Source: Crystallibacter degradans (lineage in GTDB: Bacteria; Actinomycetota; Actinomycetes; Actinomycetales; Micrococcaceae). From it: a DNA stretch of 59,640 nt. Where the stretch lies: assembly GCF_012952295.1 (NCBI RefSeq), contig NZ_JABBCH010000021.1, forward strand, positions 1-59,640, in the 5' to 3' direction. Under the pieces are notes generated by a model, which saw nothing but the letters and a program-made list of their open reading frames with translations, had not been told where the DNA came from and searched no databases. The position numbers and the translations under genes were made by a program. Every line of letters starts with the position of its first letter. Within the stretch, counting starts at the first letter, position 1. This document shows, one piece after another, positions 9,036 through 59,517 of the stretch.

Positions 9036-9407
9036 TTAGGCCCGATGCCCGGCCCGGTGGGCGGTCCCGGTCGAAAGTTGGGTCATGTCCAGGTTTCGGA
9101 CGGCCGTGATGACCCCGTCGAGGCCGGCTGCCGGCAGTGCTCCGGGCTCGGAGAAAACGAGCACTCCGTCGCGGAAGGCCATCAGCGTGGGGATCGAGCT
9201 GATGCCGGCCGCGGCAGCCAGGGCCTGCTCGGCTTCGGTGTCGACCTTGGCGAAGACGATGTCGGGGTGCTTTCGCGAGGCGGCCTCATAGACGGGTGCG
9301 AACATCCGGCAGGGGCCGCACCAGCCGGCCCAGAAGTCGACCAGGACGATGTCGTTCTCCTGGATGATCGGGGCGAAGTCGTGTTCGGTGATGTCGATGG
9401 TGGTCAT
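9036..9407 (-). CDS. trxA: Thioredoxin
   Basis: A 123-residue thioredoxin with the active site WCGPC at residues 29-33 and cis-Pro in SSIPTLMAF. It is the usual length apart from a 15-residue polar tail. Thioredoxin reduces protein disulfides and also releases sulfide from protein persulfides and thiosulfate carriers, which fits its place between the TauE exporter and an MFS gene in a rhodanese operon. A GGAGAAATCC-like site precedes the ATG. Confidence 0.9.
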   Translation of the reverse strand: MTTIDITEHDFAPIIQENDIVLVDFWAGWCGPCRMFAPVYEAASRKHPDIVFAKVDTEAEQALAAAAGISSIPTLMAFRDGVLVFSEPGALPAAGLDGVITAVRNLDMTQLSTGTAHRAGHRA

Positions 9408-9431
9408 GGATTTCTCCGTTTGATGGGTTGA

Positions 9432-11732
<2,301 letters not shown>

Positions 11733-45579: not shown

Positions 45580-46557
45580 CTAGGCGTCTAGGACCAGCTT
45601 CGGGCACTTGGAGCGGCTGACGCATATGAACATGGTGTCGTTCTTCGCCCGTTCCTTTTCGGACAGGATGGTGTCGCGGTGCTCGACTTCGCCCTCGAGG
45701 ACTTTTGTTTCGCACGTACCGCAGAATCCTTCTTCGCAGGAGGACATAAAGGAGGGGTTCACTTCGAGCACGACGTCCAGTACAGACTTGTCGGATGGAA
45801 CTGTCAGCGTGCAGCCGGACTGCCGCAACTCAATTTCAAAGGGCGCATCTGTAGCCGTATCCGCTGTACCCGTGGTGCTGGCGGGCGGCGTTGCGGAGGC
45901 GAAGTGTTCGGCGTGGAAGGCGTCCGCACCCAAGGTATCTACCGTGATTTGTTGAAGGTCGGCGAGGAGCCGCTCCGGTCCGCACGCATAGACGGCCGTT
46001 CCGGTGGGTGCATCCTTGATTTCGGTGAGTAAGTCGGCCCTGCCGCGCTCGTCCTTCGGATAGACCGCGAGGGAATCTCCCATGATCTCCTGGAGTTCAT
46101 CGATGAACGCCATTGTCTGGCGGCTGGACCCGCAGTAGACAAGCCGGGTGCTCTTGCCTGCGGCCACGAGTTGACGTGCCATGGCCAGGATGGGTGTGAT
46201 GCCGATGCCGCCCGCGACCAGGAGGTAGTGCGCTGCGCCATCCTCGATTTTGAAATGGTTGCGTGGTCCGCGCGCCATCAGTGTTGTCCCTAGCCTGGTC
46301 TGTGAGTGAATTTCCTCGGACCCGCCCCGCCCGTTGGTTTCGCGCAGAACGGCTAGACGGTACCGCTGCAGATCACCCGGGTCGGAGCACAGGCTGTACT
46401 GCCGCACCGTGCCTGAAGGCAGGACGATGTCCAGGTGGGCGCCGGGCTGCCACTCGGGAAGTGCGCGGCCGTCGGGAAGGGCCAGTTCGAGGGACATGAC
46501 GCTGCTGGATTCCTGGCGCAGGCCGCGGACGACAAGGTCAAACGACTCGGTGGACAT
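45580..46557 (-). CDS. VanB/phthalate-dioxygenase-reductase-type ferredoxin oxidoreductase
   Basis: A 325-residue reductase: an FMN domain with VRQYSL at 51-56, an NAD domain with GGIGITP at 116-122, and a C-terminal plant-type [2Fe-2S] ferredoxin with C274, C279, C282 and C312. It takes electrons from NADH and hands them to a Rieske oxygenase; the oxygenase is the first gene of this operon. The stop and the next start leave only 2 bases, so it is co-transcribed. Confidence 0.9.
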   Translation of the reverse strand: MSTESFDLVVRGLRQESSSVMSLELALPDGRALPEWQPGAHLDIVLPSGTVRQYSLCSDPGDLQRYRLAVLRETNGRGGSEEIHSQTRLGTTLMARGPRNHFKIEDGAAHYLLVAGGIGITPILAMARQLVAAGKSTRLVYCGSSRQTMAFIDELQEIMGDSLAVYPKDERGRADLLTEIKDAPTGTAVYACGPERLLADLQQITVDTLGADAFHAEHFASATPPASTTGTADTATDAPFEIELRQSGCTLTVPSDKSVLDVVLEVNPSFMSSCEEGFCGTCETKVLEGEVEHRDTILSEKERAKNDTMFICVSRSKCPKLVLDA

Positions 46558-46559
46558 GA

Positions 46560-47075
46560 TTAGACTCCGGGAGTGGGAAGTTGGAAGAGTTTGCCGGGAA
46601 CGGCGTCCTTGGTTCCGCCCTTGAGGACCTCGATGAAGTCGCGTGCGAGGTCGGCTTTCCTCACCGTGACGAGCATGTCGAGCTCGCGGCGGAGCACCAT
46701 CATGGAAGTGGAGCCGGGTTCGGAATCCCAGCCGCCGACGCCGACCAGGACACCTGCGAGGAGTGTTCCCTGGTTCCGTCCTGCGGTAGCCATGACTTCC
46801 ACGAAATCGTCGGGAGTCTCCTCGAGCCGGGATCCGAGGAACACCATCATGTCCGTGGTCGCGGCGAGGTCGCTGACGGTTTCCGTGGAGGGATGGGCCG
46901 CCGGCGAATCGATTTCGCGGAGGAGGACTGCGTCGGGATGGCTGGCCGGTGCCGCGACCAGAACTTCCCGCAGGCCGGCGTCTGACATGGACGAGACGAG
47001 TGCGGCGCCGGAAGGTCCCAAAGGGACAAGAAGGATGCGGGCCTTGTAATAGGCGCGCGACGTCAGATAAGTCAT
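46560..47075 (-). CDS. Unknown protein in the Rieske operon
   Basis: A 171-residue protein that I do not recognise. It alternates hydrophobic strands with acidic helices (ARILLVPLGPSGAALV; LAATTDMMVFLGSR; GVLVGVGGW), suggesting an alpha/beta fold. Residues about 77-101 look like FtsZ/GTPase-like strands, but no P-loop is present. It sits between the dehydrogenase and the reductase of the same operon, so it should help the same pathway. It has no Cys. Confidence 0.6.
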   Translation of the reverse strand: MTYLTSRAYYKARILLVPLGPSGAALVSSMSDAGLREVLVAAPASHPDAVLLREIDSPAAHPSTETVSDLAATTDMMVFLGSRLEETPDDFVEVMATAGRNQGTLLAGVLVGVGGWDSEPGSTSMMVLRRELDMLVTVRKADLARDFIEVLKGGTKDAVPGKLFQLPTPGV

Positions 47076-47105: not shown

Positions 47106-48275
47106 TTAGAGCGCCGGCCGGACGACGACATGCGGACTGCTGGGCCCTGAGCGGTCCAGCAGGGTGCGGAACAGGTCGTCAACGCCGTCCAGGCCGACGT
47201 CGATGCTGGGTACGTGCTCCAGACCCGTATTTCCGGCGGCAAGAAGTTCGATGCTCCTGGTAACGGCTTCCGGTGAACGCCCCCGCACGCCGACGACTCC
47301 GGACGCGCCCCGCACGAGGGTTTTCAGGTTCACTTCGGCGACGGGAGTATCTCCCAAGCCGGCCAGGACTAGACGTCCCAGCTTCCTCAGATGCTCCGTG
47401 GTTTCGAGAGCAGGTCCTCCAAGACCGACGGTATCAACGATGACGTCGAATCCGTTGCCCTTGCCATGCCTGCCCAGCGCCGCCGAAGTTGACTTGGCGT
47501 CGTCGTTAGTGACGATGGAGGCGCCCATGGCCTCGGCAATCTCCAGGCGGTCCCGACTGGTGCGGGAGTTGCGGCCCAGCACCACGATCTCCTCGGCGCC
47601 GACCGCCGTGGCTGCGGCTACCGCGGCGACACCGTGGTAGCCGGGTCCGATGACGGCCACGCGCGATCCGCTCTTGGCACCACCAATGTTGATGACCCAG
47701 TCGACTGCGTTTGCAAAGGGCTGGGTCCAGGCAGCGAGGTTCGAGTCAAGGTCCCGGGGCAGTTTGTGCAGCACCGTCCGGGTCGATAGCTCCAGGTATT
47801 CCGCGTTGCCGCCGTGAAGGCCGGAGCCCTCGTGGAGGCCGAGCATTCCGACGCGGCGCTGTCCGCCCCATAAATCCGCCTCCGGGCAAAACCGGTATAC
47901 GTCGGGCCGTGAACAAGCTTCACAGCTGGCACGTCCGCAGGGCAGGTATTCCTCGAGCGCTACTCTGTCGCCGACTTCAACGTCCCACGACCACTGCATG
48001 GCAGGACTGAGAGAGACGATTTCGCCGACGACGTGGTGGCCCATGACCGTGGGATGGCCGAGGCCCTGCTGGTAGAGATCCAGATCTGTCCCGCACAGGG
48101 CCGAAGATTCTACCTTGAGCCAGCCGGCGGCGGTGGTCGCCAGGGCCGGATCGAGCGTCTCGACCGCCGTCGTTGAATCAGGCAACGAGACGGCGGCCCT
48201 GACAGCAGCGGGGAGGGGTGCGCCCAGTGCCAGAGCCGTTTCGAGAAAGGCGACGGGGGAAGCCTGGTCCTTCAT
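47106..48275 (-). CDS. Zinc-dependent medium-chain dehydrogenase
   Basis: A 389-residue MDR protein: catalytic zinc ligands in SSALCGTD and GHHVVGE, the structural zinc loop CGRASCEACSRPDVYRFC, and a Rossmann stretch SRVAVIGPGYHGVAA. It oxidises an alcohol or diol with NAD(P)+. In a Rieske operon it probably acts on the hydroxylated product or the side chain. A single-base shift in the ring substrate cannot be read. Confidence 0.85.
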   Translation of the reverse strand: MKDQASPVAFLETALALGAPLPAAVRAAVSLPDSTTAVETLDPALATTAAGWLKVESSALCGTDLDLYQQGLGHPTVMGHHVVGEIVSLSPAMQWSWDVEVGDRVALEEYLPCGRASCEACSRPDVYRFCPEADLWGGQRRVGMLGLHEGSGLHGGNAEYLELSTRTVLHKLPRDLDSNLAAWTQPFANAVDWVINIGGAKSGSRVAVIGPGYHGVAAVAAATAVGAEEIVVLGRNSRTSRDRLEIAEAMGASIVTNDDAKSTSAALGRHGKGNGFDVIVDTVGLGGPALETTEHLRKLGRLVLAGLGDTPVAEVNLKTLVRGASGVVGVRGRSPEAVTRSIELLAAGNTGLEHVPSIDVGLDGVDDLFRTLLDRSGPSSPHVVVRPAL

Positions 48276-48299: not shown

Positions 48300-49583
48300 C
48301 TAGATGGAAACGAAGTCGGTTCCGGGGACCACTTGGATGGCCTTGTTCGCACCTTCATGGAACGGGATGTCTTTGGGCAGCAGCATTGACGTTGAGCGGA
48401 CACGCTGGTCCGCAGTATCGATGCCGGGGAGGGCCTCGTCTTCCATGCTGTCCAATGCTGCGAGCAGGCGGCGCCGGGCCAGGATGATGGCAGCGTCCGA
48501 AGTGCCCAGACGCTCCTTGGTGCGGTCCGCGATATCGCCCATGCTCTCCTGAAGGGAGAAGTCCTGCGCGGCGATGCCCTCAATGCCGGAGAAGGTCTTG
48601 TTCTGCTTCTGAGCCTCCCGGTCCATGAGGTAGTCGTTGCTCTTATTGGCAAGGGTCCGGTACGTTCCCGGGATGTACTTGGCGTGGATGCCGTCGCCGT
48701 TGCGCATCTGCTCGAGTTCGTCCTCCCGCAGGTCCCGGGTCGGGTGGTAGTTCCACGACCAGGCCCAGCAGGTGGTTTCGTCGATCGGGACCCAGGCGTG
48801 GCCGCCCATGGGGTTGTGCGTGCCGAAGGGGGGAATGATCGTGTAGAAAGGCATAATCCACTGCGTGATGCGCCAGTAGAACTCTTCCTCGTTCGCGTTG
48901 CGGCGGGCGCCGATCAGCAGCCCGCCGTCGCTTTCGGCGACCTCGAATTTCGGGCGGGTGTCAGCCTTGATGTAGTCGTTACCGGCCGTGCCGGAGTGCA
49001 TGGGGTCATCGTCCAGATTGAAACGGTGGGCGAATGAAACGTGGCTGGAATCAATGCCTCCCTCCATGGCCTGGAGGTAATTGGTCTCCTGGAGGCGTTT
49101 GGAAATGAATCGCTGCCCCTCGCCGAGTAGGGCCCACTCGAGCTCCGGGAGTTCTGGCATGTGTTCGGCAGGTCCCATGTATGCCCACAGCACGCCGCCC
49201 CGTTCCACCAGGGGGTACGACTTCTGCTTGATCCGGCACTTGAACTTGGAGTCCTCCGGCTCTGAAGGCATGTCCGTCAGGTTGCCCTCCACGTCGTACT
49301 TCCACCCGTGATAGGCGCAGCGCAGTCCGTTTTCCTCGTTTCGTCCGAAGTAGAGGGAGGCCGTCCGGTGTGCACAGAACTCGTCCAGGAGGCCCAGCCG
49401 GCCAGAGGTATCACGGAACGCGATGAGCTTCTCGCCCAAGAGCTGGACGCGGACCGGGGGGCAGTCGGCTTCGGGCAGCTCCTCGGCAAGGAGCGCGGGG
49501 AACCAATACCGCCGGAACAACCGCCCCATGGGCGTTTCCGGTCCTGTCTGGGTCAACAAAACGTTCTGTTCTGAAGTAAGCAC
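48300..49583 (-). CDS. Rieske non-heme iron oxygenase, phthalate-4,5-dioxygenase/VanA-like
   Basis: A 427-residue oxygenase. The Rieske centre is C70-x-H72 and C89-x2-H92 (in CAHR and CAYHGW); the mononuclear iron site is in EGGIDSSHVSFAHR, with DSSH and AH. The start LLTQTGPETPMGRLFRRYWFP is shared by phthalate and vanillate-type oxygenases. It hydroxylates or demethylates an aromatic acid. I chose GTG 49583 because GGAAGG lies 8 bases upstream. It is first in a four-gene operon, and one of the shared regulatory motifs lies 44 bases upstream. Confidence 0.87.
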   Translation of the reverse strand: MLTSEQNVLLTQTGPETPMGRLFRRYWFPALLAEELPEADCPPVRVQLLGEKLIAFRDTSGRLGLLDEFCAHRTASLYFGRNEENGLRCAYHGWKYDVEGNLTDMPSEPEDSKFKCRIKQKSYPLVERGGVLWAYMGPAEHMPELPELEWALLGEGQRFISKRLQETNYLQAMEGGIDSSHVSFAHRFNLDDDPMHSGTAGNDYIKADTRPKFEVAESDGGLLIGARRNANEEEFYWRITQWIMPFYTIIPPFGTHNPMGGHAWVPIDETTCWAWSWNYHPTRDLREDELEQMRNGDGIHAKYIPGTYRTLANKSNDYLMDREAQKQNKTFSGIEGIAAQDFSLQESMGDIADRTKERLGTSDAAIILARRRLLAALDSMEDEALPGIDTADQRVRSTSMLLPKDIPFHEGANKAIQVVPGTDFVSI

Positions 49584-49626
49584 TGTGCGGGCCTTCCGGT
49601 ACGAGTCAAAATCAAATGTCCGTTGT

Positions 49627-49652
49627 GCGCGCAATTGCGCGTTATGCGGTTT
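49627..49652. promoter_or_regulatory. Shared catabolic operator, site 1
   Basis: GCGCGCA-N12-GCGG; its left part is a perfect 14-bp palindrome (49628-49641, CGCGCAATTGCGCG). It lies between the Rieske operon and the double-IclR gene. Confidence 0.65.
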
Positions 49653-49756
49653 GACTAGTGTTGCATGGGTCTCTTTTGCCCGTCAAGGAGGACGCTGACG
49701 GACGGGCGGACAGTCGTCCGGGGCAATGGTCTAGATTCAAGATTGTGAATTCATCA

Positions 49757-51340
49757 ATGCCTTCCGCCGCAGAGGCCGCAGTCAAGGACCCCGACCATGT
49801 CGACTCCCTGGAGCGGGGACTGAGCGTCCTCGGGGCGTTCAGCATGCAGGAAGGGGCGCTCTCGGTCGCCGACTTGGCGGCTCGCGTGGGCATCACACGT
49901 ACAGCGGCCCGCAGATTTGCCCTGACCTTGGAGTACCTGGGCTACGCACACCAGTCGGCGGAGGGTTACTCGCTGGCGCCCGGCGTGCTCGAGATCGGTG
50001 ATGCATACCTTCGCAGCAATCCGCTGCCGGACGCCGCGCATCCCCATCTGGAAGAACTTGTCCGGCTGGTGGGTGAAACGGCTTCCTTGACCGTCCTGCA
50101 CAAGAGGCGCGTCTACTACACGGCCCGCGTAGCCGCCGACAGGATCATCACGGCAAACATCACCCTTGGAACCAACGTCCCCGCCTACAGCACGGCCACA
50201 GGGCGGGTTCTGCTGGGCGGCCTTGATCCGGACGAACTGGAGGACTACCTGTCAACCATCGAAGCCGCCTCCGGCTTCGACCCGGACTACGTGCGGGCGA
50301 GGATCGTCGAAGCCCGCGAGCAAGGCTGGGCCGTGGCCGATCAGGAGATGACGACTGGAATCCGGTCCGTAGCCGTCCCTCTGCGGAATCCGGAGCAGCG
50401 GATCATTGCCGCACTGAACATTTCCGCTCACGCGACGCGCGTGCACACCGCGGTGCTCGAGACCGACTTCGTTCCGCTGCTCCAGTCTGCCGCGCAACAT
50501 ACTGCGGACACGCTCTGGCCGAGTGCCGGGTTAGCTCCCGGCCGACCAACCATGCCTCCCGCACACGTCGCGCGTCCGATTGCTCGCCCGACCGATGCCA
50601 TCCAGTCAGTAGAGCGCGGATTGTGCATCCTCACCGCTTTCGACGAGGGCCACCCGACTATGAATCTGGCACAGATATCCGAACGGTGCCGACTCCCGCG
50701 CTCGGCTGCACGCCGCTTTGTACGGACCTTGGCCTCGCTCGGCTACCTTGAACCGCAAGGGCGCAGCTTCGTCCCAACTCCCCAGCTCCTGGAACTGGGA
50801 TACTCCCTGCTTCCCAAGCTTTCCCTTGCGGACGTGGCCAAACCACGCCTCGAAGCGCTGGCACGAAAACTCGGGGCATCCGTTTCGATCGGTGTCCTCG
50901 ACGGCAAGGACCTGCGGTATGTAGCCAGGGTGAGTGCGCCCAGCCCTCTGACCGTAAACATTCGCGCGGGCAGCCGCGTCCCCGCGCACCGGACGGCGAT
51001 GGGCCAGGTTCTACTGTCCCTGCAGCCGCCCGGGACCTTGCAAGACTTGCCGCGCTCCTCGGGCGGGGACAACACCAGTGGCGGCCTGGCCGAACTGGCC
51101 GACACGCTGGCACTGGTCCGAGAGCAGGACTGGAGCTACGTAGACCAGCTGCTCGAAGTGGGAATCCGCGCCGTGGCGGTCCCTCTTCGCAACCGCCGAG
51201 GAGAGGTGGTGGCCGCTTTGAGCGCCTCTCTACACGACGCATCCACCCCGGATCAGGACATGACCAACACGTTCCTGCCAGCGTTGCGGACCGCCGCCGA
51301 CGATTTCGTCATGGATCTCAGAGACGGCCTCGACATCTAA
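49757..51340 (+). CDS. Tandem double IclR regulator
   Basis: A 527-residue protein with two full IclR units in one chain. HTH 1 is at about 15-75 (SVLGAFSMQEGALSVADLAA; RTAARRFALTLEYLG), effector domain 1 at 80-260 (NVPAYSTATGRVLL; GIRSVAVPLRN). HTH 2 is at about 275-340 (SAARRFVRTLASLG) and effector domain 2 follows (RVPAHRTAMGQVLL; GIRAVAVPLRN). A normal IclR protein has about 260-280 residues, so this is a fusion. It is divergent from the Rieske operon with site 1 between. GTG 49745 is another possible start; no clear ribosome site. Confidence 0.82.
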   Translation: MPSAAEAAVKDPDHVDSLERGLSVLGAFSMQEGALSVADLAARVGITRTAARRFALTLEYLGYAHQSAEGYSLAPGVLEIGDAYLRSNPLPDAAHPHLEELVRLVGETASLTVLHKRRVYYTARVAADRIITANITLGTNVPAYSTATGRVLLGGLDPDELEDYLSTIEAASGFDPDYVRARIVEAREQGWAVADQEMTTGIRSVAVPLRNPEQRIIAALNISAHATRVHTAVLETDFVPLLQSAAQHTADTLWPSAGLAPGRPTMPPAHVARPIARPTDAIQSVERGLCILTAFDEGHPTMNLAQISERCRLPRSAARRFVRTLASLGYLEPQGRSFVPTPQLLELGYSLLPKLSLADVAKPRLEALARKLGASVSIGVLDGKDLRYVARVSAPSPLTVNIRAGSRVPAHRTAMGQVLLSLQPPGTLQDLPRSSGGDNTSGGLAELADTLALVREQDWSYVDQLLEVGIRAVAVPLRNRRGEVVAALSASLHDASTPDQDMTNTFLPALRTAADDFVMDLRDGLDI

Positions 51341-51356
51341 ATAGAGTGTCCGTCTA

Positions 51357-51382
51357 GCGCGCAGTGTTACACTAAGCGGACG
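51357..51382. promoter_or_regulatory. Shared catabolic operator, site 2
   Basis: GCGCGCA-N12-GCGGACG, followed by AAAA. It lies 100 bases before the MFS start at 51483 and just after the double-IclR stop. Confidence 0.6.
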
Positions 51383-51482
51383 AAAAACTTGTCTGCGGTG
51401 GTGCTGGTTGTTATATTCATCACCTAACTCTCAGCGGTTGCGCGATGTCCCCCGGCAACCATGCCCCTCAGATGGAATACAC

Positions 51483-52745
51483 ATGACTACACTTGCCCCT
51501 GCAAAAACTGCCACCGAGGCTGATCCTTCCAAGCGGCCTTATCGGTGGCTTGTCCTCGTGCTTTGCTGGCTCGCTTTCACCATGACCTCCGTTGACCGTT
51601 CGACGTGGGGCCCTGCGTCGATCTTCATTGGCGAAGACCTCGGTGTACCGTTGGCAAGTTTGGGGCTTTTCGCCACCTTCTACTACATCGGGTACGTCGT
51701 CTCGAACGCCGGCAGCGGATTCCTCACCGACAAAGTGGGCGGACGTCTTCTCATTACGGTGTCCCTCGTCGGTGCCGGCGCTTCCATGATGTTCTTCGGG
51801 TCAACGACCTCGGCGGCAATCGGGATGACCGTCCAGGCGGCCATCGGACTCTTCGCCGGAGCTGAATATGCCGCAGGCATCAAGCTAATCTCCAGCTGGT
51901 TCCGTCCCGAAGAACTCGGCAAGGCCATGGGGATCTACACTTCAGCAACATCACTCGGCGTCGTCGTGGCTAACACCGCCGTCCCCTACCTCATCGAGCA
52001 TTACTCCTGGCACGCCTCCTATTTGCTTTTCGGAGGCATTTCCATTGTGGCGGGTTTTGTTTGCTACACCATGCTGAGGCCCGGCCCCGTCGTGTCCAGG
52101 AAGACCCGCAGTGCTGAAGGCCGGTCTGCCCTTCGCGAACTGGCACGCAATAAGAACCTTCTGCTCCTGGCCCTGGCAGGATTTGGCGGTTTCTGGGGAA
52201 CCTATGGATTCATCACGTGGTCCAACGCCCTCATGATCAAAGGGCACGGCATCGACCCGGTGGTCGCCGGAGGCATTGTGGCAATCTACGCAGCCCTCGG
52301 CGTCCTCGGCAAGCCCCTCATCGGCTGGATCGCCGACAAGTTCAACGGCGCACGCAGGATTCCTGCCATGGTGGTCCTTGGCTGCTTCTCCGTCATGCTC
52401 GTCATCTTCGGCCTGCTGGACAACGCCCTGGCCTTTTTCATCGCTGCCCCATTACTGGGGCTAGGAGCCTACTGTTACCTTCCGCTCATCGTTGCCCTCG
52501 TGCCCCGGCTCGTCAGCAGCAGCGTTGTCGGCAGCGCCGCCGGAATGACCAACGCCATGTGGCAAATCGGCAGCGTTCTAGTTCCATTGGCAGTTGGCGC
52601 CGTTTTCGCCGCTACCGACAATTCCTTCATGGCCGCCCTGATCACACTTGCAGCCGGCCCCTTCCTTGGCATGATCATCATGTACTTCGTCAACGAGCGC
52701 CCAGATGATGTTGAAATCGCTGTGAAGGCGGAAGGAAAGGCTTAA
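51483..52745 (+). CDS. MFS transporter (ACS-type, aromatic-acid uptake likely)
   Basis: A 420-residue transporter with about 12 helices and the anion:cation symporter start TSVDRSTWGPASIFIGEDLG; the loop SGFLTDKVGGRLL and the mid region GWIADKFNGARRIP are family features. It lies downstream of the double IclR and of a shared operator, so it probably imports the substrate of the Rieske pathway. Confidence 0.82.
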   Translation: MTTLAPAKTATEADPSKRPYRWLVLVLCWLAFTMTSVDRSTWGPASIFIGEDLGVPLASLGLFATFYYIGYVVSNAGSGFLTDKVGGRLLITVSLVGAGASMMFFGSTTSAAIGMTVQAAIGLFAGAEYAAGIKLISSWFRPEELGKAMGIYTSATSLGVVVANTAVPYLIEHYSWHASYLLFGGISIVAGFVCYTMLRPGPVVSRKTRSAEGRSALRELARNKNLLLLALAGFGGFWGTYGFITWSNALMIKGHGIDPVVAGGIVAIYAALGVLGKPLIGWIADKFNGARRIPAMVVLGCFSVMLVIFGLLDNALAFFIAAPLLGLGAYCYLPLIVALVPRLVSSSVVGSAAGMTNAMWQIGSVLVPLAVGAVFAATDNSFMAALITLAAGPFLGMIIMYFVNERPDDVEIAVKAEGKA

Positions 52746-53904
52746 AACACCAAAGACCGGCTACTCCCTACCTACCCGGACCAATCGGCCCGGACTCAAG
52801 GCCGCCCGGAGGACCCGGGAGCGGAACGAGCGGCCTGGGGAAGGAATATCTCCTCCGCTTGCTCAAACGGGGGCCGGGCCAGGTCTGGTTTCCTCGAATG
52901 CGCCTTGTCCGTTCTGCGGTACGAAGGATCGGTCGCGCTCTGCGCGACTCAACTGGCTGAGAATACCGGCCTCGCACGGAACAGCCGCACGCCGCATTGT
53001 CTGACCCTCCAGGACCTTACCTCTGCGTCTCGGCCGGCTTGCCTGTGCCGCAGCATGGTGATTCCAGCACAGGGACCCGGCTCCGCGCACTTACCCATCA
53101 GCATCTTTTCATCCCTTATGAGGCGGTGGTGGGGGAGGGGAGACTGCCGCACTGACTGTTCTGCGCCATCGGTGTGTGTCGCCGATAGCGGTCCGTGCCG
53201 CGGCTGAACGCGTGGGGACCGCCAAATAGCTGGGCGCTGTCAGTTTAGGGACTCACTCGGTCGTATCGATTGCCATTCCGGCTCCTGAAATGGCAGCCGA
53301 CGTCGTAGCAGAATTCATGGGTCATCCCCGGCCGCTCAACGAACGGTCCTGCCCATGCTGGAGAAGTGCCACCCGCTCCACCGAATCGGGCACAGGAAAG
53401 TGGCTTCGAAACGGCCGAGACGGGCGCAATAGGAACCGACAATGCCGACACCTCTTGGCACAGGCTCGATGGCCGGCGTTCCACGGCACGAGGGGAGGTG
53501 CAATTGCAGGGCAAGGCCTGCCCGGGGTTTCCTGCGCAACTTGCATTACTTTCGACATATCGGGTGACAGTGTGTGCTTCCAACTGTCACCCGCGGTCTT
53601 GGCACCTATACAATGGGTGTTCAATTTTTCGTGGCCATGCTGGATGGGTGGACGTCATTACCTTGGGCCGAGTGGTGCCCCCCAAATGATCTGGGAGGAT
53701 CCACTGGACTGATCGGCACGAAGAGGCCAGGGGAGAAACATCGGAGAGGATTCGGGTTGAGGATTGGAGCTGTCTGCTTTGGAGGGGAGGGGCTGCTGCC
53801 GAATGACCCCGCGAATATTAGCTGAACTAGTATTTGCTCCTCTGCACAGCAGGAATCGCGGCCAAATGCTCGGATACATCTTGTGCTGGTACTCGTGCGA
53901 GCAG
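52746..53904. other. Large gene-free region
   Basis: About 1.15 kb without a supportable gene. Many short frames occur in both directions, but none has a ribosome site with protein-like sequence. It contains the inverted repeat at 53561-53593. It may be decayed DNA. Confidence 0.4.
53561..53593. repeat. Perfect 11-bp inverted repeat
   Basis: CGGGTGACAGT (53561-53571) and ACTGTCACCCG (53583-53593) with an 11-base spacer. No gene is near. A regulatory site, an attachment site or a hairpin. Confidence 0.6.
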
Positions 53905-53940
53905 AAGGGCGCGCCGGCTCGTGTATGCCGGCGCGCCCTT
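53905..53940 (-). terminator. Terminator of the ABC operon
   Basis: AAGGGCGCGCCGGC (53905-53918) is the exact reverse complement of 53927-53940, loop 8. It lies 40 bases after the ATPase stop. Confidence 0.85.
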
Positions 53941-53980
53941 CCTCATGCATTGATCGGTTACTGGTCCTTAGCCACGGTGG

Positions 53981-54868
53981 TCAGTGTGATCTGGCTGCCT
54001 TGGAAACAGCCCTTTCCTTGGCCTTTTCCGCGCTGTCATTGACCTCCTGCTTGAGCTGTTGCCAGATGTCGTAGACCACCTCGCCGTATTCCGGGCGGTG
54101 CCGGAGTTCGAGTACGTCCCGGGGGCGTTCGAATGGAACGTCCACAAACGCCTTGACCCGGCCAGGCTGCGAGGTCATGATCATGATCCTGTCGCCCAGG
54201 GTCACTGCTTCATCAACGCTGTGGGTGATGAAGAGAACTGTTTTGCGGGTTTCATCCCAGATGCGCAGGAGCTCCTCATGCAGAAGTGTCTTGTTCTGCT
54301 CGTCAAGGGCCGAGAACGGTTCATCCATGAGCAGGATATCCGGGTCGTTGGAAAAGGCACGGGCAATGGAGACACGCTGGCGCATGCCGCCTGAGAGCTG
54401 GTGCGGATAGGCATCCGCAAATGCAGTCAGACCGGTCTTACTCAGGTAATGGCCCACGGTGTCCTTGATTTCAGACTTGGGCACATTCCGCATATTCAGG
54501 CCGTAGGCAGCGTTCTCCCACACGGTCATCCACGGGAAAATGGAATCTCCCTGGAACACCATGGAATTCTCCGGACGGTTACTTGCAGCTTCTTTGATGG
54601 AGAAGGACCCGGAAGTCGGTTTTTCCAGGCCGGCCAGAATGCGGAGCAGCGTTGTTTTACCGCATCCGCTGGGGCCGACGATCACGAAAAACTGCCCTTT
54701 GTCGATGGTGATGTTTATATCGTCAAGGGCCGTGAATGTCTTGCCTTTGGAATCAAACTGTTTGGTCAGATGGTCAACGGAGATTTTGACTTCACTGGTC
54801 ATCGTGCTGCTTTCGTTTTGAGCCCCGCGGCTGTTCAGATGCGCGCGGTCGGCTTTAACAGTTGTCAT
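53981..54868 (-). CDS. ABC transporter ATPase (SsuB/TauB/NrtD type)
   Basis: A 295-residue (or 273, from the ATG at 54802) ATPase: Walker A GPSGCGKTT, Q-loop MVFQGDSIFPWMTV, signature LSGGMRQR, Walker B LLMDEPFSALD and switch His FITHSVDEA. It powers the permease encoded upstream. The class carries sulfonates, taurine, nitrate and aromatic acids. It is the last of three minus-strand genes, and the terminator follows. Confidence 0.9.
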   Translation of the reverse strand: MTTVKADRAHLNSRGAQNESSTMTSEVKISVDHLTKQFDSKGKTFTALDDINITIDKGQFFVIVGPSGCGKTTLLRILAGLEKPTSGSFSIKEAASNRPENSMVFQGDSIFPWMTVWENAAYGLNMRNVPKSEIKDTVGHYLSKTGLTAFADAYPHQLSGGMRQRVSIARAFSNDPDILLMDEPFSALDEQNKTLLHEELLRIWDETRKTVLFITHSVDEAVTLGDRIMIMTSQPGRVKAFVDVPFERPRDVLELRHRPEYGEVVYDIWQQLKQEVNDSAEKAKERAVSKAARSH

Positions 54869-54929
54869 GGTCTGCCCTGTCTGTCAGCGGAGACAGCGTA
54901 TGTCCCCGTGCTCGAATGTGGAATGAGTT

Positions 54930-55751
54930 TCATCGTTTCCACGGCATGACCCACTTTGCGACTTCGGCCAGGAAGAGCGCGATGATGTACCCCATGACTG
55001 CGATGACGAAGATCCCGACATACATGGTTTCGACCGAGAACAGTTGCCAAGCGTTCCAGATCATAAAGCCGAGGCCTTCTTGTGCGCCCATCATTTCGGC
55101 AATGGCAATGAGGATCAGGCCCAGGCCGGCGCCGAGCTCGATACCAGTCATGATGCTTGGCATGGCACCCGGAATGGCGACGGTTTTGAAGACCTTCCAC
55201 TTGCTGGCTCCGTAATTCTTGGAAACGTCGTAGTAGATGGGGGCAACCTGGACGACACCGGACATGGTGTTCATGACGACCGGATAGAACACGCCGATGG
55301 CAACCATTACGACCTTGGACATTTCGCCCAGACCGAAGATCAGCAGGATCAAGGGCAACAACGCGCTTTTGGGGATCGGGTACGTACCGGACACCAGCGG
55401 CGACAACGCGGACCTGATGGGGCGGCTGAGCCCCATCAGTACGCCGAGCACGATGGCGGGGACAAGCCCCAGCCAGAATCCGTAGAAGAGGCGCTGAATG
55501 CTGGCCCACATGTGCATCCACAGTTCACCGGAGGCAATCAGTTCCCCCATCCGCATGAAGATGCTGGACGGTGCAGGGAAGAACCGGGCATCGATGGCGC
55601 CGAGATGAACAAAAGCTTCCCAAATGAGGAGCAGGACGACCGGCGTGCCGATTGCCAGGACCCGGTCTGAAACCCCGAATTTGTTTTTCTTGGGACTCCG
55701 TCGGGCAGGGTTAACCACCTGGGCGGCCAGCGGAGCTGATGTTTGTGTCAC
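54930..55751 (-). CDS. ABC transporter permease
   Basis: A 273-residue membrane protein with about six helices and the cytoplasmic EAA-type loop (NYGASKWKVFKTVAIPGAMPSI). It belongs to the BPD_transp_1 family of nitrate/sulfonate/taurine-type importers. Located between the binding protein and the ATPase genes, both with short gaps. Confidence 0.9.
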   Translation of the reverse strand: MTQTSAPLAAQVVNPARRSPKKNKFGVSDRVLAIGTPVVLLLIWEAFVHLGAIDARFFPAPSSIFMRMGELIASGELWMHMWASIQRLFYGFWLGLVPAIVLGVLMGLSRPIRSALSPLVSGTYPIPKSALLPLILLIFGLGEMSKVVMVAIGVFYPVVMNTMSGVVQVAPIYYDVSKNYGASKWKVFKTVAIPGAMPSIMTGIELGAGLGLILIAIAEMMGAQEGLGFMIWNAWQLFSVETMYVGIFVIAVMGYIIALFLAEVAKWVMPWKR

Positions 55752-55778
55752 GATAATGTCTTTCTCGTAGCGGCCGGG

Positions 55779-56858
55779 CTAACCGGCGAATTCGCCGAGT
55801 TCGGCCGCGGCGGTCTCGGCGAAGGAAGTGTCGATGATGGAACTCAGCTCGATTGGCTCGCCTTCGATGACTCCTTGGCCAATGAAGAAGTCGTAGTCCT
55901 TCTGAAGACTCGCCTGGTCAAGCTTGCCGTCGGGATCGATGTAGTTGGGAACAATTTGACGGTAGAGGTCCGGCTTGATGCCGGTGGCTTCGGTAACGAT
56001 ATCGACAACAGCATCGGCCTTTCCGCTATCCAAGCGGCCATCTTCGAAGGCGCCGACATAGTCGCGCACACCCTTGAGGTAGCCCTTCATAAAGCAGTTG
56101 CCTACCTCGGTGTTTTCAGCGAAAGCGGCACTGTAGAGGATGACCGCCAGCTGCTGGGAGCCGTAGGACTCGGACGGGGATGCGAAGCGCACGGCGACTC
56201 CTTCCTCTTCCATGAGGGTGGCATTGGGCTCTGTGGTCAGACTGGCGTCGATGCCGCCGTTGGCGAAGGCAGCCAGATGCTCGCCGAAGCCGAGGTAGGA
56301 GTGCTCAACGTCGTCATAGCCCAGACCTGCGGACTCGAGCATGGAGGAGAGCGAAGAAGCGGTCGCGGTTGCCTGCGCCGGTTCAGCAATCGCCAAGCCC
56401 TTCAGATCTTCCAGGCTTGAAACCTTGCCGTCCTCAACCAAGTCCGTGCGCACCATCATCGGCATGTACGTGTGTTCTTCGTTCATGGTGCCCTTATCCG
56501 CGACGATCTTTAGACTGACGTCACGGGCAACGGCGTTGTAGAAGCCGGCGGAGGGGGCTCCGCCTCCAACATCCAAATCGCCCGAGCCCAGGGGCGCAAT
56601 CATTTTCGCCGCGGAGTCAAAGCTTTGAAAATTAACCTCCAGACCTTCTTCCTTGAAGTAGCCCTTGGAGTCGGCGATGAACATCGGCGCGTCACTGGCG
56701 GAGGTCACCACGCCCACATTGACGCTGGTTCCTTCACACGTTCCCTCAGCGGAAGCGCCCGCTGAATCGCCGCCACCACTGCCGCAACCCGTTGCGAGCA
56801 GGGCTATCGGGATCGATGCGGCAAATACGCGGGCAAGGGTGGATCGGGATCGACGCAT
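55779..56858 (-). CDS. ABC transporter substrate-binding lipoprotein (NMT1/SsuA-like)
   Basis: A 359-residue protein: signal peptide with lipobox LLATGC (Cys 25), then a domain with the start VNVGVVTSASDAPMFIADSKGYFKEEGL, typical of NMT1/SsuA/ThiY solute-binding proteins. The GGAGG site 8 bases before the ATG at 56858 supports the start. Upstream is shared operator site 3. In catabolic clusters such systems import aromatic acids such as phthalates, which fits here but is not proof. Confidence 0.88.
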   Translation of the reverse strand: MRRSRSTLARVFAASIPIALLATGCGSGGGDSAGASAEGTCEGTSVNVGVVTSASDAPMFIADSKGYFKEEGLEVNFQSFDSAAKMIAPLGSGDLDVGGGAPSAGFYNAVARDVSLKIVADKGTMNEEHTYMPMMVRTDLVEDGKVSSLEDLKGLAIAEPAQATATASSLSSMLESAGLGYDDVEHSYLGFGEHLAAFANGGIDASLTTEPNATLMEEEGVAVRFASPSESYGSQQLAVILYSAAFAENTEVGNCFMKGYLKGVRDYVGAFEDGRLDSGKADAVVDIVTEATGIKPDLYRQIVPNYIDPDGKLDQASLQKDYDFFIGQGVIEGEPIELSSIIDTSFAETAAAELGEFAG

Positions 56859-56989
56859 GTGTAATGCCTCCTGTTGAAAAGAACGGAAAATTAAAGGACC
56901 TGCCCCAATGCTGCGTGGCCCCGGCTTTGCCCCTTTGCGGGGCGCCTCAGGAAGAGTGTGACACACATCATCACCAAAATGCACGCATT

Positions 56990-57015
56990 CTGCGCAACTG
57001 CGCGCCATGCGGACG
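56990..57015. promoter_or_regulatory. Shared catabolic operator, site 3
   Basis: CTGCGCA-N12-GCGGACG, then AAAAT as at site 2. It lies between the binding-protein gene and the divergent IclR gene. Confidence 0.65.
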
Positions 57016-57077
57016 AAAATAGAGGGTTTGCCGTACGGGGCGGTCTCGTATGCCTCTCCAGAAATGGTCGATGCGCT

Positions 57078-57911
57078 ATGGTTCCGGATATGGAGCCAGA
57101 CGAGAAACGTTCGCAGGCGGGGTTTGCGCAGGCCCGGACGAACCTCTCAAATTCAGACCCCGGAAGCAGTGTCAAGGCGCTGGATCGGGGGCTCAAGGTC
57201 CTTGCTGCCATCTCTGATGCAGGCCGGCCAAGTAGCGTCTCGGAAATAGCCCTTGCCGTCGGCATGACCCGAACCGCGGCCCGTCGTTTTATCCTTACCT
57301 TGGAGCACTTGGGCTATGTCGCATCCCAAGGGCAGGGGTACGTCCTCCAGCCGCGGGTACTTGAGCTGGGCGAAGCGTACTTGAGCAGCCAGCCGTTGGC
57401 GGCCGCGGCTCACCCGCACCTGAAGGAGCTTGCGGCAGCAGTTGCCGAGACAGTGTCGCTGACTGTGCTCCATCAGGGCCTCGTTACCTATGTGGACCGC
57501 GTCCAGGCATCGCGCATCCTGTCCATCAATATAGTGGTTGGCTCCCGCGTCCCGGCCTATGCCACGGCCACCGGGAGGGTTCTGCTGGCCGGCCTGGAAG
57601 AGGCCGCACTGGTTTCTTACTTCTCGGCCCTGCAGGCGCAGTGTTACACGGCAAACACCGAAACCGACGCCGGGGAAATACGCAAAAAGGTATTCGAGGC
57701 CAGGGATCAGGGCTGGTTCCTGGCCGACCAGCAGTTCAGGTCCGGAATACGCTCCCTGGCTGTGCCGGTCAAGGATGGCCGAGGTGCCACGTTGGCCGCC
57801 ATCAATATTTCAGCATCCGCCTCCCGGGTTACTGCTGAGGACCTCAAAAACCAGTATCTGGAACCACTGCGCCAGACCGCGGAGGAGATTGCAGCCGCCG
57901 TCACCGGCTGA
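57078..57911 (+). CDS. IclR-family regulator
   Basis: A 277-residue IclR: helix-turn-helix at about 30-90 (LKVLAAISDAGRPSSVSEIA; TRTAARRFILTLEHLG), then the effector domain with SRVPAYATATGRVLLAG and FRSGIRSLAVPV. It is most similar to the first half of the double IclR. Divergent from the ABC operon, with site 3 between. ATG 57078 or 57090; ribosome site weak. Confidence 0.82.
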   Translation: MVPDMEPDEKRSQAGFAQARTNLSNSDPGSSVKALDRGLKVLAAISDAGRPSSVSEIALAVGMTRTAARRFILTLEHLGYVASQGQGYVLQPRVLELGEAYLSSQPLAAAAHPHLKELAAAVAETVSLTVLHQGLVTYVDRVQASRILSINIVVGSRVPAYATATGRVLLAGLEEAALVSYFSALQAQCYTANTETDAGEIRKKVFEARDQGWFLADQQFRSGIRSLAVPVKDGRGATLAAINISASASRVTAEDLKNQYLEPLRQTAEEIAAAVTG

Positions 57912-57933
57912 CTCCAGCGTCGGTGGCGTGAGC

Positions 57934-58830
57934 TTATCCCACAGGCGTATCCGGAGTCAGCTCCACTCCTATCCGTCGTGCGGTTTCTTCGACATGGGGC
58001 AGCGAATCGCGGACGAATGCCTGAATCGGGCCAGCGGCATTATTAGTTGCGGTGCTCAACGCTGCAACGATGTTCCCGTCACGATTCCGCAGCGGAACAG
58101 AGACGGCTTGGATGCCGACCTCCATTAGCTGGTCCACGGCATTCCAGCCGCGAGAGCGGGTCAGCTCAATGTCCTGCCGGAAATTCGCCAGCCACAAACC
58201 CCCGGGCAAACTCCCCGCCCGGACATACTCCTCGAACATGTCCGTCTCGAGCTGGGCCAGGAGGACGCGCCCCAAGCTGGTCTGGTGTGCAGGCAGCCGC
58301 GTTCCTTCGGTTACAGTCGGCGCAAATTCACTAGCTGCCATGACACGGCAGATATACCGAACGTCCGCCCCTTCAAGGACGGCTATCGAGGAAGAAGTTC
58401 CGAGATGCCGCGCCAGAGTCTGTAGGTGCGGACGACAAATGTCCCTCACCGTTACATGCTGCTTGTGAGTGTATCCAAGCCAAAGCACGCTGGGTGCCAG
58501 CTGATACCGTTTGCCAGCGGTTTGGACATAGCCCAGATCCACCAGTGTCATCAGCAACCGCCGCACCGCAGATCGGGAGAGCGCCGTACGCTCCGAGATT
58601 TGAGCCAAATTCATCGAAGGGGACTCACCGAAGGCCCGAATGATTGCCAGACCGCGTTCCAATGATTGGACAGCATCGACCGGCCGGGGAGGTTTGCGTT
58701 CTTCCGGCAACCGCGTCGAATGAGATATCAAGCAGGTGCTCCTGGCGTTTAGTACCCGGCGTGGATCTGGCGTGTTGTAAGCGACGGTCGCCGGTACGTT
58801 CACTTTGCACCGAAGGGTGTCCCATGCCAC
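57934..58830 (-). CDS. IclR-family regulator
   Basis: A 298-residue frame; the IclR part starts at about residue 50 (VDAVQSLERGLAIIRAFGES). The helix-turn-helix (MNLAQISERTALSRSAVRRL) resembles the second half of the double IclR (MNLAQISERCRLPRSAARRF). The effector domain has TRLPAHQTSLGRVLLAQ. The N-terminal 40 residues may be overcalled; a later start is possible. It converges with the other IclR gene. Site 4 is immediately upstream. Confidence 0.78.
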   Translation of the reverse strand: MAWDTLRCKVNVPATVAYNTPDPRRVLNARSTCLISHSTRLPEERKPPRPVDAVQSLERGLAIIRAFGESPSMNLAQISERTALSRSAVRRLLMTLVDLGYVQTAGKRYQLAPSVLWLGYTHKQHVTVRDICRPHLQTLARHLGTSSSIAVLEGADVRYICRVMAASEFAPTVTEGTRLPAHQTSLGRVLLAQLETDMFEEYVRAGSLPGGLWLANFRQDIELTRSRGWNAVDQLMEVGIQAVSVPLRNRDGNIVAALSTATNNAAGPIQAFVRDSLPHVEETARRIGVELTPDTPVG

Positions 58831-58841
58831 AATCTTACTCA

Positions 58842-58867
58842 GCGCGCAGTTGCACGCAATGCGGACG
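58842..58867. promoter_or_regulatory. Shared catabolic operator, site 4
   Basis: GCGCGCA-N12-GCGGACG, 12 bases upstream of the IclR start and 54 before the truncated MFS gene. Confidence 0.65.
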
Positions 58868-58920: not shown

Positions 58921-59517
58921 GTGGAATCGGCAGACGTCATGTCACCGTCGCTGCCTGCTGAAGACCTGATTCCGAGGGCCGGTCCCGACAGCGGAAAAGC
59001 CGGTGCGTCCCCACCCACGTCCGACCCTGACTTTAGGAGCCCATACTCGATGGTCGCAAGACGGGCAGATCGAGCGCCGGCCGGAGGTCTGCTCGTGGTT
59101 TTGGCGTGCGCAATGGGGGTAGGTCCTCTCATCATGTACGGCCTGAGTGCAGTTAGCAGCGTAGTCATTGACGACCTGAAGATCAGTGCCGCCCAGTTCG
59201 GCTGGCTGGCTACAGTCTGCTTTATTGCTGCCACCGCTTCTTCCGTGGGATTGGGCAGGATCAGCGACCGTACGGATGGCCGGACGCTGATCCTCATTAT
59301 TTTTGGCGGCGCGGCGGTCGCATTAGCAGTAGCAGGACTGTCCACCGGCTATGCCTGGTTGCTGGTTGCAGTCGGCCTTTCCGGAGCAGCGCAGGCTATG
59401 TCCAATCCGGCCACAAACCGGTTGGTGAGCACCCACGTGGATCCGGGAAAACAATCCAAGTGGATTGGGATCAAGCAATCAGGTGTGCAGGGCAGCCAAT
59501 TCATCGCGGGGCTGTAA
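58921..59517 (+). pseudogene. MFS transporter truncated at the window edge
   Basis: A 198-residue piece with the MFS first-half signatures (GLSAVSSVVIDDLKISAAQF; LGRISDRTDGRTLI). MFS proteins have about 400 residues, so it ends halfway. The break at about 59510 coincides with the start of a different frame on the other strand, which suggests insertion of a mobile element. The cut part would lie beyond the element, outside the window. Confidence 0.72.

Follow-up and report, generated by a model that had tools for sequence, protein, structure and literature searches.

Genes and predicted operators of the cluster

This study concerns a 59,640-nt stretch of contig NZ_JABBCH010000021.1 of Crystallibacter degradans (GCF_012952295.1; genome of 4.96 Mb), referred to below as the window, in which four copies of a predicted 36-bp operator lie in the promoter gaps of a gene cluster for the catabolism of an aromatic acid. 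On the minus strand, the cluster holds an operon for a Rieske oxygenase with a LigXa_C domain, which resembles isophthalate dioxygenase (48300–49583, the start being taken from an annotated orthologue; 216 of 389 aligned residues, or 56%, are identical to IPDO_KF1), a zinc-type dehydrogenase (47106–48275), a 171-aa protein that had no Pfam or NCBIfam match (46560–47075) and a PDR/VanB-type reductase (45580–46557). On the plus strand lie the genes for a fused double IclR regulator, which is composed of an N-type half, a linker and a C-type half (49745–51340), and for the first of two transporters of the major facilitator superfamily (MFS; 51483–52745). The ATPase (53981–54868), the permease (54930–55751) and the NMT1/SsuA-like substrate-binding protein (55779–56858) of an ATP-binding cassette (ABC) importer are again encoded on the minus strand, and beyond them are a single N-type IclR gene (57090–57911, plus strand) and, tail to tail with it, a single C-type IclR gene (57934–58731, minus strand), the start of which is either 58731 or 58830. 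The second MFS gene (59050–59517, plus strand) is incomplete; it adjoins a repeated element close to the end of the contig. Judging from the comparisons presented below, it is very probable that the four sites represent one IclR-family operator and that they define one regulon through which an aromatic dicarboxylic acid, isophthalate being the likeliest, would be taken up and oxidised in a first step, with the N- and C-type IclR proteins of the cluster as the likely readers.

The full element is a dyad, cGTCCG-N5-CGCGCA-NN-TGCGCG-N5-CGGACg, with TGTCCG and CGGACA as its outer arms; it consists of four boxes of alternating direction with the spacing 6-5-6-2-6-5-6, and an alignment of the four sites and their relatives placed the centre within the NN of GCGCA-NN-TGCGC. 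From 11 sites, the symmetric consensus cGTCCGCATAGCGCGCAATTGCGCGCTATGCGGACg was derived. Site 1 (49617–49652) is located in the gap from which the Rieske operon and the fused IclR gene diverge and agrees with the inner boxes at 12/12 and with the outer boxes at 8/10 positions. Site 2 (51347–51382), upstream of the first MFS gene, has complete outer boxes (10/10) and inner boxes that are reduced to 7/12, the right one being lost. Site 3 (56980–57015) separates the operon of the ABC importer from the single N-type IclR gene, and site 4 (58832–58867) lies between the single C-type IclR gene and the second MFS gene; in both, the right outer box is intact and the left one is weak. Each site keeps roughly three good boxes of the four. 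No promoter gaps other than these four were recognised between the Rieske operon and the end of the contig. The dyad matches numbered 10, 9, 11 and 7 of 18 for sites 1 to 4 (window-wide mean 4.8), and the summed symmetry of 37 of 72 pairs had a p of ~3e-5 when compared with random positions in the window, the sites themselves having served to choose the centre. Downstream of site 2 there is a probable promoter of the first MFS gene (51389–51417, plus strand), with the TTG of the -35 element starting at 51389 and the -10 element TATATT at 51412–51417; this TTG-N20-TATATT element was kept in four aligned loci (the window and three relatives), apart from one -10 base in one of them.

The original prediction had described these sites as a 26-bp pattern, GCGCGCA-N12-GCGG, on the plus strand of four intergenic gaps. 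The pattern was indeed found exactly at 49627, 51357 and 58842 and with two mismatches at 56990, and the 14-bp palindrome CGCGCAATTGCGCG of site 1 is present, as is the stretch that sites 2 and 3 have in common (GCGGACGAAAA). All four sites are intergenic with the gene starts adopted here (some of the longest open reading frames, which use upstream starts, overlap sites 1 and 3), and they adjoin the Rieske operon, the ABC importer, the two MFS genes and the IclR genes. The plus-strand orientation holds as worded but has little meaning, since the element is a dyad and the profile R1 (see below) matched all four sites on both strands. Likewise, the constant spacing of 12 holds, but it is a consequence of the four-box dyad, of which the 26-bp motif is only a part.

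Some further observations concern the surroundings of the sites. The gene of the 171-aa protein has the dehydrogenase and reductase genes as its neighbours, and each of the six annotated related operons (L049–L052, L060 and L061) encodes at this place a hypothetical protein of similar size, the likeness being one of position and size. A 14-mer of site 2, GCGCAGTGTTACAC (51359), recurs once in the window, at 57636 within the single N-type IclR gene. A GC-rich inverted repeat (GCGCGCCGGC...GCCGGCGCGC; 53909–53936) just downstream of the ABC operon is perhaps its terminator, and no tandem repeats were found in the 52.7–54.0 kb region. The second MFS gene is broken off close to the end of the contig (59515–59640); the final 121 bases are also present at the ends of C55 and C58, so that the gene is probably interrupted by a mobile element.

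Specificity and conservation of the operator

Within the window, three exact matches of the 26-bp pattern were obtained against 0.20 expected, and none of 100 shuffles gave at least three. As a genome scan, this pattern had to be rejected: with up to two mismatches, it gave 62 matches in the window against 77 expected, and genome-wide it gave 13 matches (seven forward and six reverse) against 16 for the reversed pattern that served as the control. The original prediction, which had named random occurrence throughout the genome as its refutation, therefore fails for the 26-bp pattern taken alone as the definition of a regulon. One-mismatch matches were found in 15 genomes besides the own one, among them a locus of the same genus (L042) that scored only 12.8 with the 26-bp matrix. 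One remote locus that a search for related loci yielded was left out of the comparisons. The wider site is specific: 35-bp leave-one-out matrices ranked the left-out site right after the three training sites; when site 1 was left out, its own reverse strand also preceded it.

Independent evidence for specificity was obtained with a profile of 38 positions (R2), which was trained in both orientations on 13 sites of relatives only and contained no window site. In the whole genome, the four window sites were its best matches (E of 9.0e-6, 9.1e-5, 3.1e-4 and 0.048), followed by C30:19398 with an E of 0.109. A second profile (R1), which was built from 17 sites in both orientations and is partly circular because the four window sites are included, gave E values from 6.0e-6 to 0.0023 for the four sites and 0.149 for the same next match. 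The simplified dyad pattern with up to three mismatches found only sites 1 and 3 genome-wide, while its control found none. With the stricter filters of the large scans, which lose weak matches, R1 at an E of 0.01 matched five of 395 family genomes, i.e., the own genome, G002, G273, G118 and G247. The first three are exactly the genomes that encode a Rieske protein with 97% identity or more, out of five Rieske-positive family genomes, and G002 and G273 had contributed to the training sites of R1. Among the 394 class genomes, there were two matches, the own genome and G783. The matches in G118, G247 and G783 were dismissed as single sites with E values of 0.004–0.009, with ~4 chance matches expected per 395 genomes at an E of 0.01, and tblastn found no N- or C-type genes in the 10–15 kb around each of them. 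Next after the four sites, the best match in the genome is the second of two operators with the same four-box layout and a CGTTCG outer box on contig C30 (L082:9230–9265 and 9399–9434), which lie upstream of quinate/shikimate-type genes with an IclR gene nearby.

Equivalent promoters on other Arthrobacter plasmids and in Rhodococcus have kept the operator. When a matrix was built from just the four sites of the window, it placed both known sites first and second in all seven related loci (L049, L050, L051, L052, L059, L061 and L064), where the 14 sites scored 19.8–29.7, whereas nine comparison loci (L053, L060, L066, L067 and L095–L099) peaked at 8.6–19.0, the margin being small in the one that reached 19.0 (L095). 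When one locus was left out at a time, with three Rhodococcus loci treated as a single lineage, 18 of 18 sites came ahead of everything else, and with training on Rhodococcus alone, the four sites came out on top within the window. The Arthrobacter loci are mutually related, and only the step between the genera is a far one. In the alignment of the Rieske/IclR gap (five loci), both inner boxes were nearly invariant, and in that of the MFS gap (four loci), this held for the left inner box and for the greater part of the two outer boxes, while much of the flanks varied in each; the boxes were among the best-kept stretches, and other kept stretches exist too. No strong operator was found in R. 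fascians, where pca and tph genes gave the highest scores (21.4 and 19.1). On plasmid pA58H3 (L051:9598–9633), a weak, diverged form of the operator (scores of 10.5–14.6) sits between an operon for a short-chain dehydrogenase/reductase and an aldehyde dehydrogenase and another N/C IclR pair, and it looks as if it had changed together with its regulators.

All eight operator-bearing clusters carry N- and C-type IclR units in a 1:1 ratio, fused or separate: 2:2 in the window, 3:3 on pA58H3 and 1:1 in three further fused loci and three Rhodococcus loci. In the IclR tree, which was also built in a 28-row version, the two types formed separate clades (N, 12 rows with support of 98/94; C, 11 rows with 99/95) with matching subgroups in each for the Rhodococcus proteins, the fused proteins and the single tail-to-tail ones; one outlying relative of each type, of uncertain placement, occurs in R. 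fascians. Among the best 45 of 478 and 422 plasmid records, ten had the N-type (at least 44% identity) and nine the C-type (at least 47%), with identity cut-offs chosen post hoc, and nine records were shared. Plasmid pB of P. defluvii had an N-type gene without a close C-type partner among these matches, and the 16.7 kb examined at this locus held no operator. Relatives of the Rieske protein from five genomes of the class (G478, G480, G497, G649 and G799; 56–75% identity) and two of the family (G217 and G176; 55 and 47%) had no N/C pair in their loci by tblastn, and no comparable operator was detected in the 18–19 kb examined (best score 19.4, in G480, whose two IclR genes are nearer to the PcaR of contig C48 of C. 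degradans). Since no comparable operator was detected in the stretches examined around these Rieske relatives without the pair, the predicted operator follows the regulators and not the enzyme. Taken with the specificity of R2 and the conservation at promoters, this tracking supports the earlier claim that one operator links the oxygenase operon, the MFS and ABC transporters and the IclR genes.

The closest solved relative of the Rieske protein is the isophthalate dioxygenase of Comamonas KF1 (9INA/9IOY), of which R234 and H257 are described as binding the two carboxylates (PMC12445078). The window protein keeps both residues and the Fe ligands, and five of eight other pocket residues (G172, V178, I246, F249 and I294). 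Isophthalate is our best guess for the substrate. Two gene arrangements support the place of the ABC importer in the predicted regulon: in R. fascians, the importer genes form part of the Rieske operon, and in G480, a relative of the binding protein is encoded beside the Rieske gene. In R. fascians, terephthalate-type and pca genes adjoin the cluster.

Interpretation and alternative explanations

We infer that the operator would be bound by IclR proteins. It comprises two adjoining TGT-11-ACA-type palindromes, the centres of which are 19 nt apart (TGTCCG-N5-CGCGCA-NN-TGCGCG-N5-CGGACA), and its readers would be PcaR/PobR-like IclR proteins of the N- and C-type, which one gene encodes as a fusion and two other genes encode separately. 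In the presence of an inducer, which we infer to be isophthalate or its product, these proteins would alter transcription from the cluster's promoter gaps and autoregulate their own genes. The sign of this predicted regulation may differ with the place: site 2 would be centred near -60, an activator-like place, if transcription started ~7 nt past the TTG-N20-TATATT element, and site 1, centred 51 nt upstream of the Rieske start, would allow both repression and activation.

Several points weigh against such an interpretation. Site 2 is marginal under R2, its E of 0.048 being close to the 0.109 of the next match, and site 4 is without its left outer box. The loci that carry the operator share a plasmid-borne history, the three Rhodococcus loci are near-copies and G002 evidently is plasmid NZ_CP018865. 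The four-box layout, with other boxes, is shared by the C30 and tph loci, which have single regulators. The pocket changes T175S, L198N and F333I in the window oxygenase mean that its substrate may differ. The fused and both single IclR proteins have HTH_IclR and IclR_C above the Pfam cut-offs, and TIGR02431 (PcaR/PcaU/PobR) is the best NCBIfam match of each of the four units, but no single unit reaches its cut-off of 284.75 (244.6 for the fused N half, 228.7 for the fused C half, 258.3 for the single N-type and 201.4 for the single C-type), and the whole fused protein passes with 467.6 only as the sum of its two halves. Membership of TIGR02431 was rejected on this ground, and the regulators are called PcaR/PobR-like here.

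That the sites reflect chance or a coding-composition effect of GC-rich DNA is most improbable: the control-level count of the 26-bp pattern would fit such a view, but R2 is specific, matrices predict sites across genera and the control of the simplified dyad is empty. It is also unlikely, though far less so, that there are two regulons, with the fused IclR acting on sites 1 and 2 and the single pair acting on sites 3 and 4 for another acid that is imported by the ABC importer and the second MFS transporter. Two regulons would agree with the separate subclades of the single pair in both trees and with the common box make-up of sites 3 and 4; against this, profiles and matrices from site 1- and site 2-type sites and from other relatives fit all four sites, and the ABC genes or their relative accompany the Rieske gene in R. 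fascians and G480.

A separate alternative concerns how the N- and C-type units work. We regard it as an even chance that each of the fused, single N-type and single C-type proteins is an ordinary, partner-free regulator of the same or overlapping operators and that the 1:1 pairing results from duplication and co-inheritance. The layout 6-5-6-2-6-5-6 also occurs upstream of the C30 quinate/shikimate-type genes and the tph operon with single IclR genes nearby, pB of P. defluvii has its N-type gene without a close C-type partner, and linked genes give parallel trees without protein contact. The mirror-tree correlation of ten partner pairs was 0.969 (reached by none of 20,000 permutations), and that of the six most divergent pairs was 0.781 (reached by 4 of 720); both speak against partner-free action, although co-inheritance of linked genes alone could produce such a correlation. 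The absence of an operator from the 16.7 kb examined at the N-only pB locus and the outer and inner boxes, which differ in sequence and were kept separately at different promoters, also speak against it. In the Rieske/IclR gaps, the inner boxes agreed at 11–12 of 12 positions in eight of eight sites and the outer boxes at 5–9 of 10, and in the gaps of the first MFS gene, the outer boxes agreed at 9–10 of 10 in seven of seven sites and the inner boxes at 5–8 of 12. The visual choice of the three Rhodococcus sites in this last set was guided in part by their outer boxes, and their scores are only 14–18, where 3 Mb of random sequence reached 16.3; few lineages stand behind the contrast.

A bolder and more tentative proposal, which we rate below partner-free action, is that the N- and C-type units are the subunits of an obligate IclR regulator with two specificities, fused in Arthrobacter and separate in Rhodococcus. 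They would form a mixed tetramer with one type per kind of box (outer TGTCCG, inner TGCGCG), and the retention or loss of boxes would tune each promoter. The four-box layout was rejected as evidence for a mixed tetramer; it is not particular to the cluster because the single-regulator C30 and tph loci use it. Three of the four boxes are alike in the tph gap of L052 (TGTTCG) and in the two C30 sites (TGTRCR, with a differing left outer box), so some difference between boxes occurs with single regulators too. Recognition-helix residues were also discarded as a discriminator, as TRT was found in eight of ten N rows and R-S in all ten C rows, with one N row having R-S as well. An AlphaFold model of the fused protein from a three-row alignment (mean per-residue confidence, pLDDT, of 65; predicted template-modelling score, pTM, of 0.36) was too poor for conclusions about pairing. 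If the proposal were true, it would add a mixed IclR regulator with two box specificities, in which a gene fusion in one lineage marks the partnership; among the open-access literature matches listed, none described an IclR heterodimer, fused protein or heterotetramer of this kind.

Comparison with known regulators

The predicted operator, which the analysis assigns to a plasmid-borne actinobacterial isophthalate-type regulon, is precise and testable and would be of use for plastic-monomer breakdown and for biosensors, and several known systems can be set beside it. PDB 5W1E is a 526-aa chain with two IclR units, as in the fused regulator, although the sequence match is only 206.9 bits; no publication on this entry was found in the open-access literature. 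PafBC, of the WYL family, is fused in Arthrobacter. In Mycobacterium smegmatis, its two helix-turn-helix regulators act as a heterodimer, which offers a possible working analogy, but they belong to another protein family and to the DNA damage response (PMC5656591). IphR of Comamonas sp. E6 is, like the predicted readers, an IclR regulator linked to an isophthalate catabolic operon, but its site, GTCTCATCAGAC plus ATGGAC, is not the window operator (PMC8222616). PobR and PcaU of Acinetobacter and PcaR share the nearest family model with the window regulators, and in its outer box and spacer the PobR site TTGTCCGATSATCGGACAR agrees with the window operator; according to PMC8222616, proteins of this family are single units of ~250 residues, whereas the window regulators are fused or paired, each unit below the TIGR02431 cut-off.

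A close likeness is to the TGT-11-ACA subgroup of IclR group 1, for which Suvorova and Gelfand (2021; PMC8222616) describe tandem and three-box sites with TGTYCR-type half-sites, an 11-nt spacing between TGT and ACA and centres 18–22 nt apart. The window element has outer half-sites of TGTCCG and CGGACA, which are separated by N5 from the inner boxes, alternating boxes, centres that are 19 nt apart by coordinates and aromatic genes as its neighbours, and the sites with about three good boxes come close to the three-box sites of that study. The inner ends GCA and TGC depart from ACA and TGT, and it is unlike group 1 that the inner boxes (TGCGCG) differ systematically from the outer ones (TGTCCG) and that the cluster has two types of regulator; the available part of PMC8222616 makes no mention of a fusion or fused protein, a heterodimer, a heterotetramer or four boxes. 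On the sequence features compared here, the predicted operator is a further instance of the known tandem IclR operators (PMC8222616).

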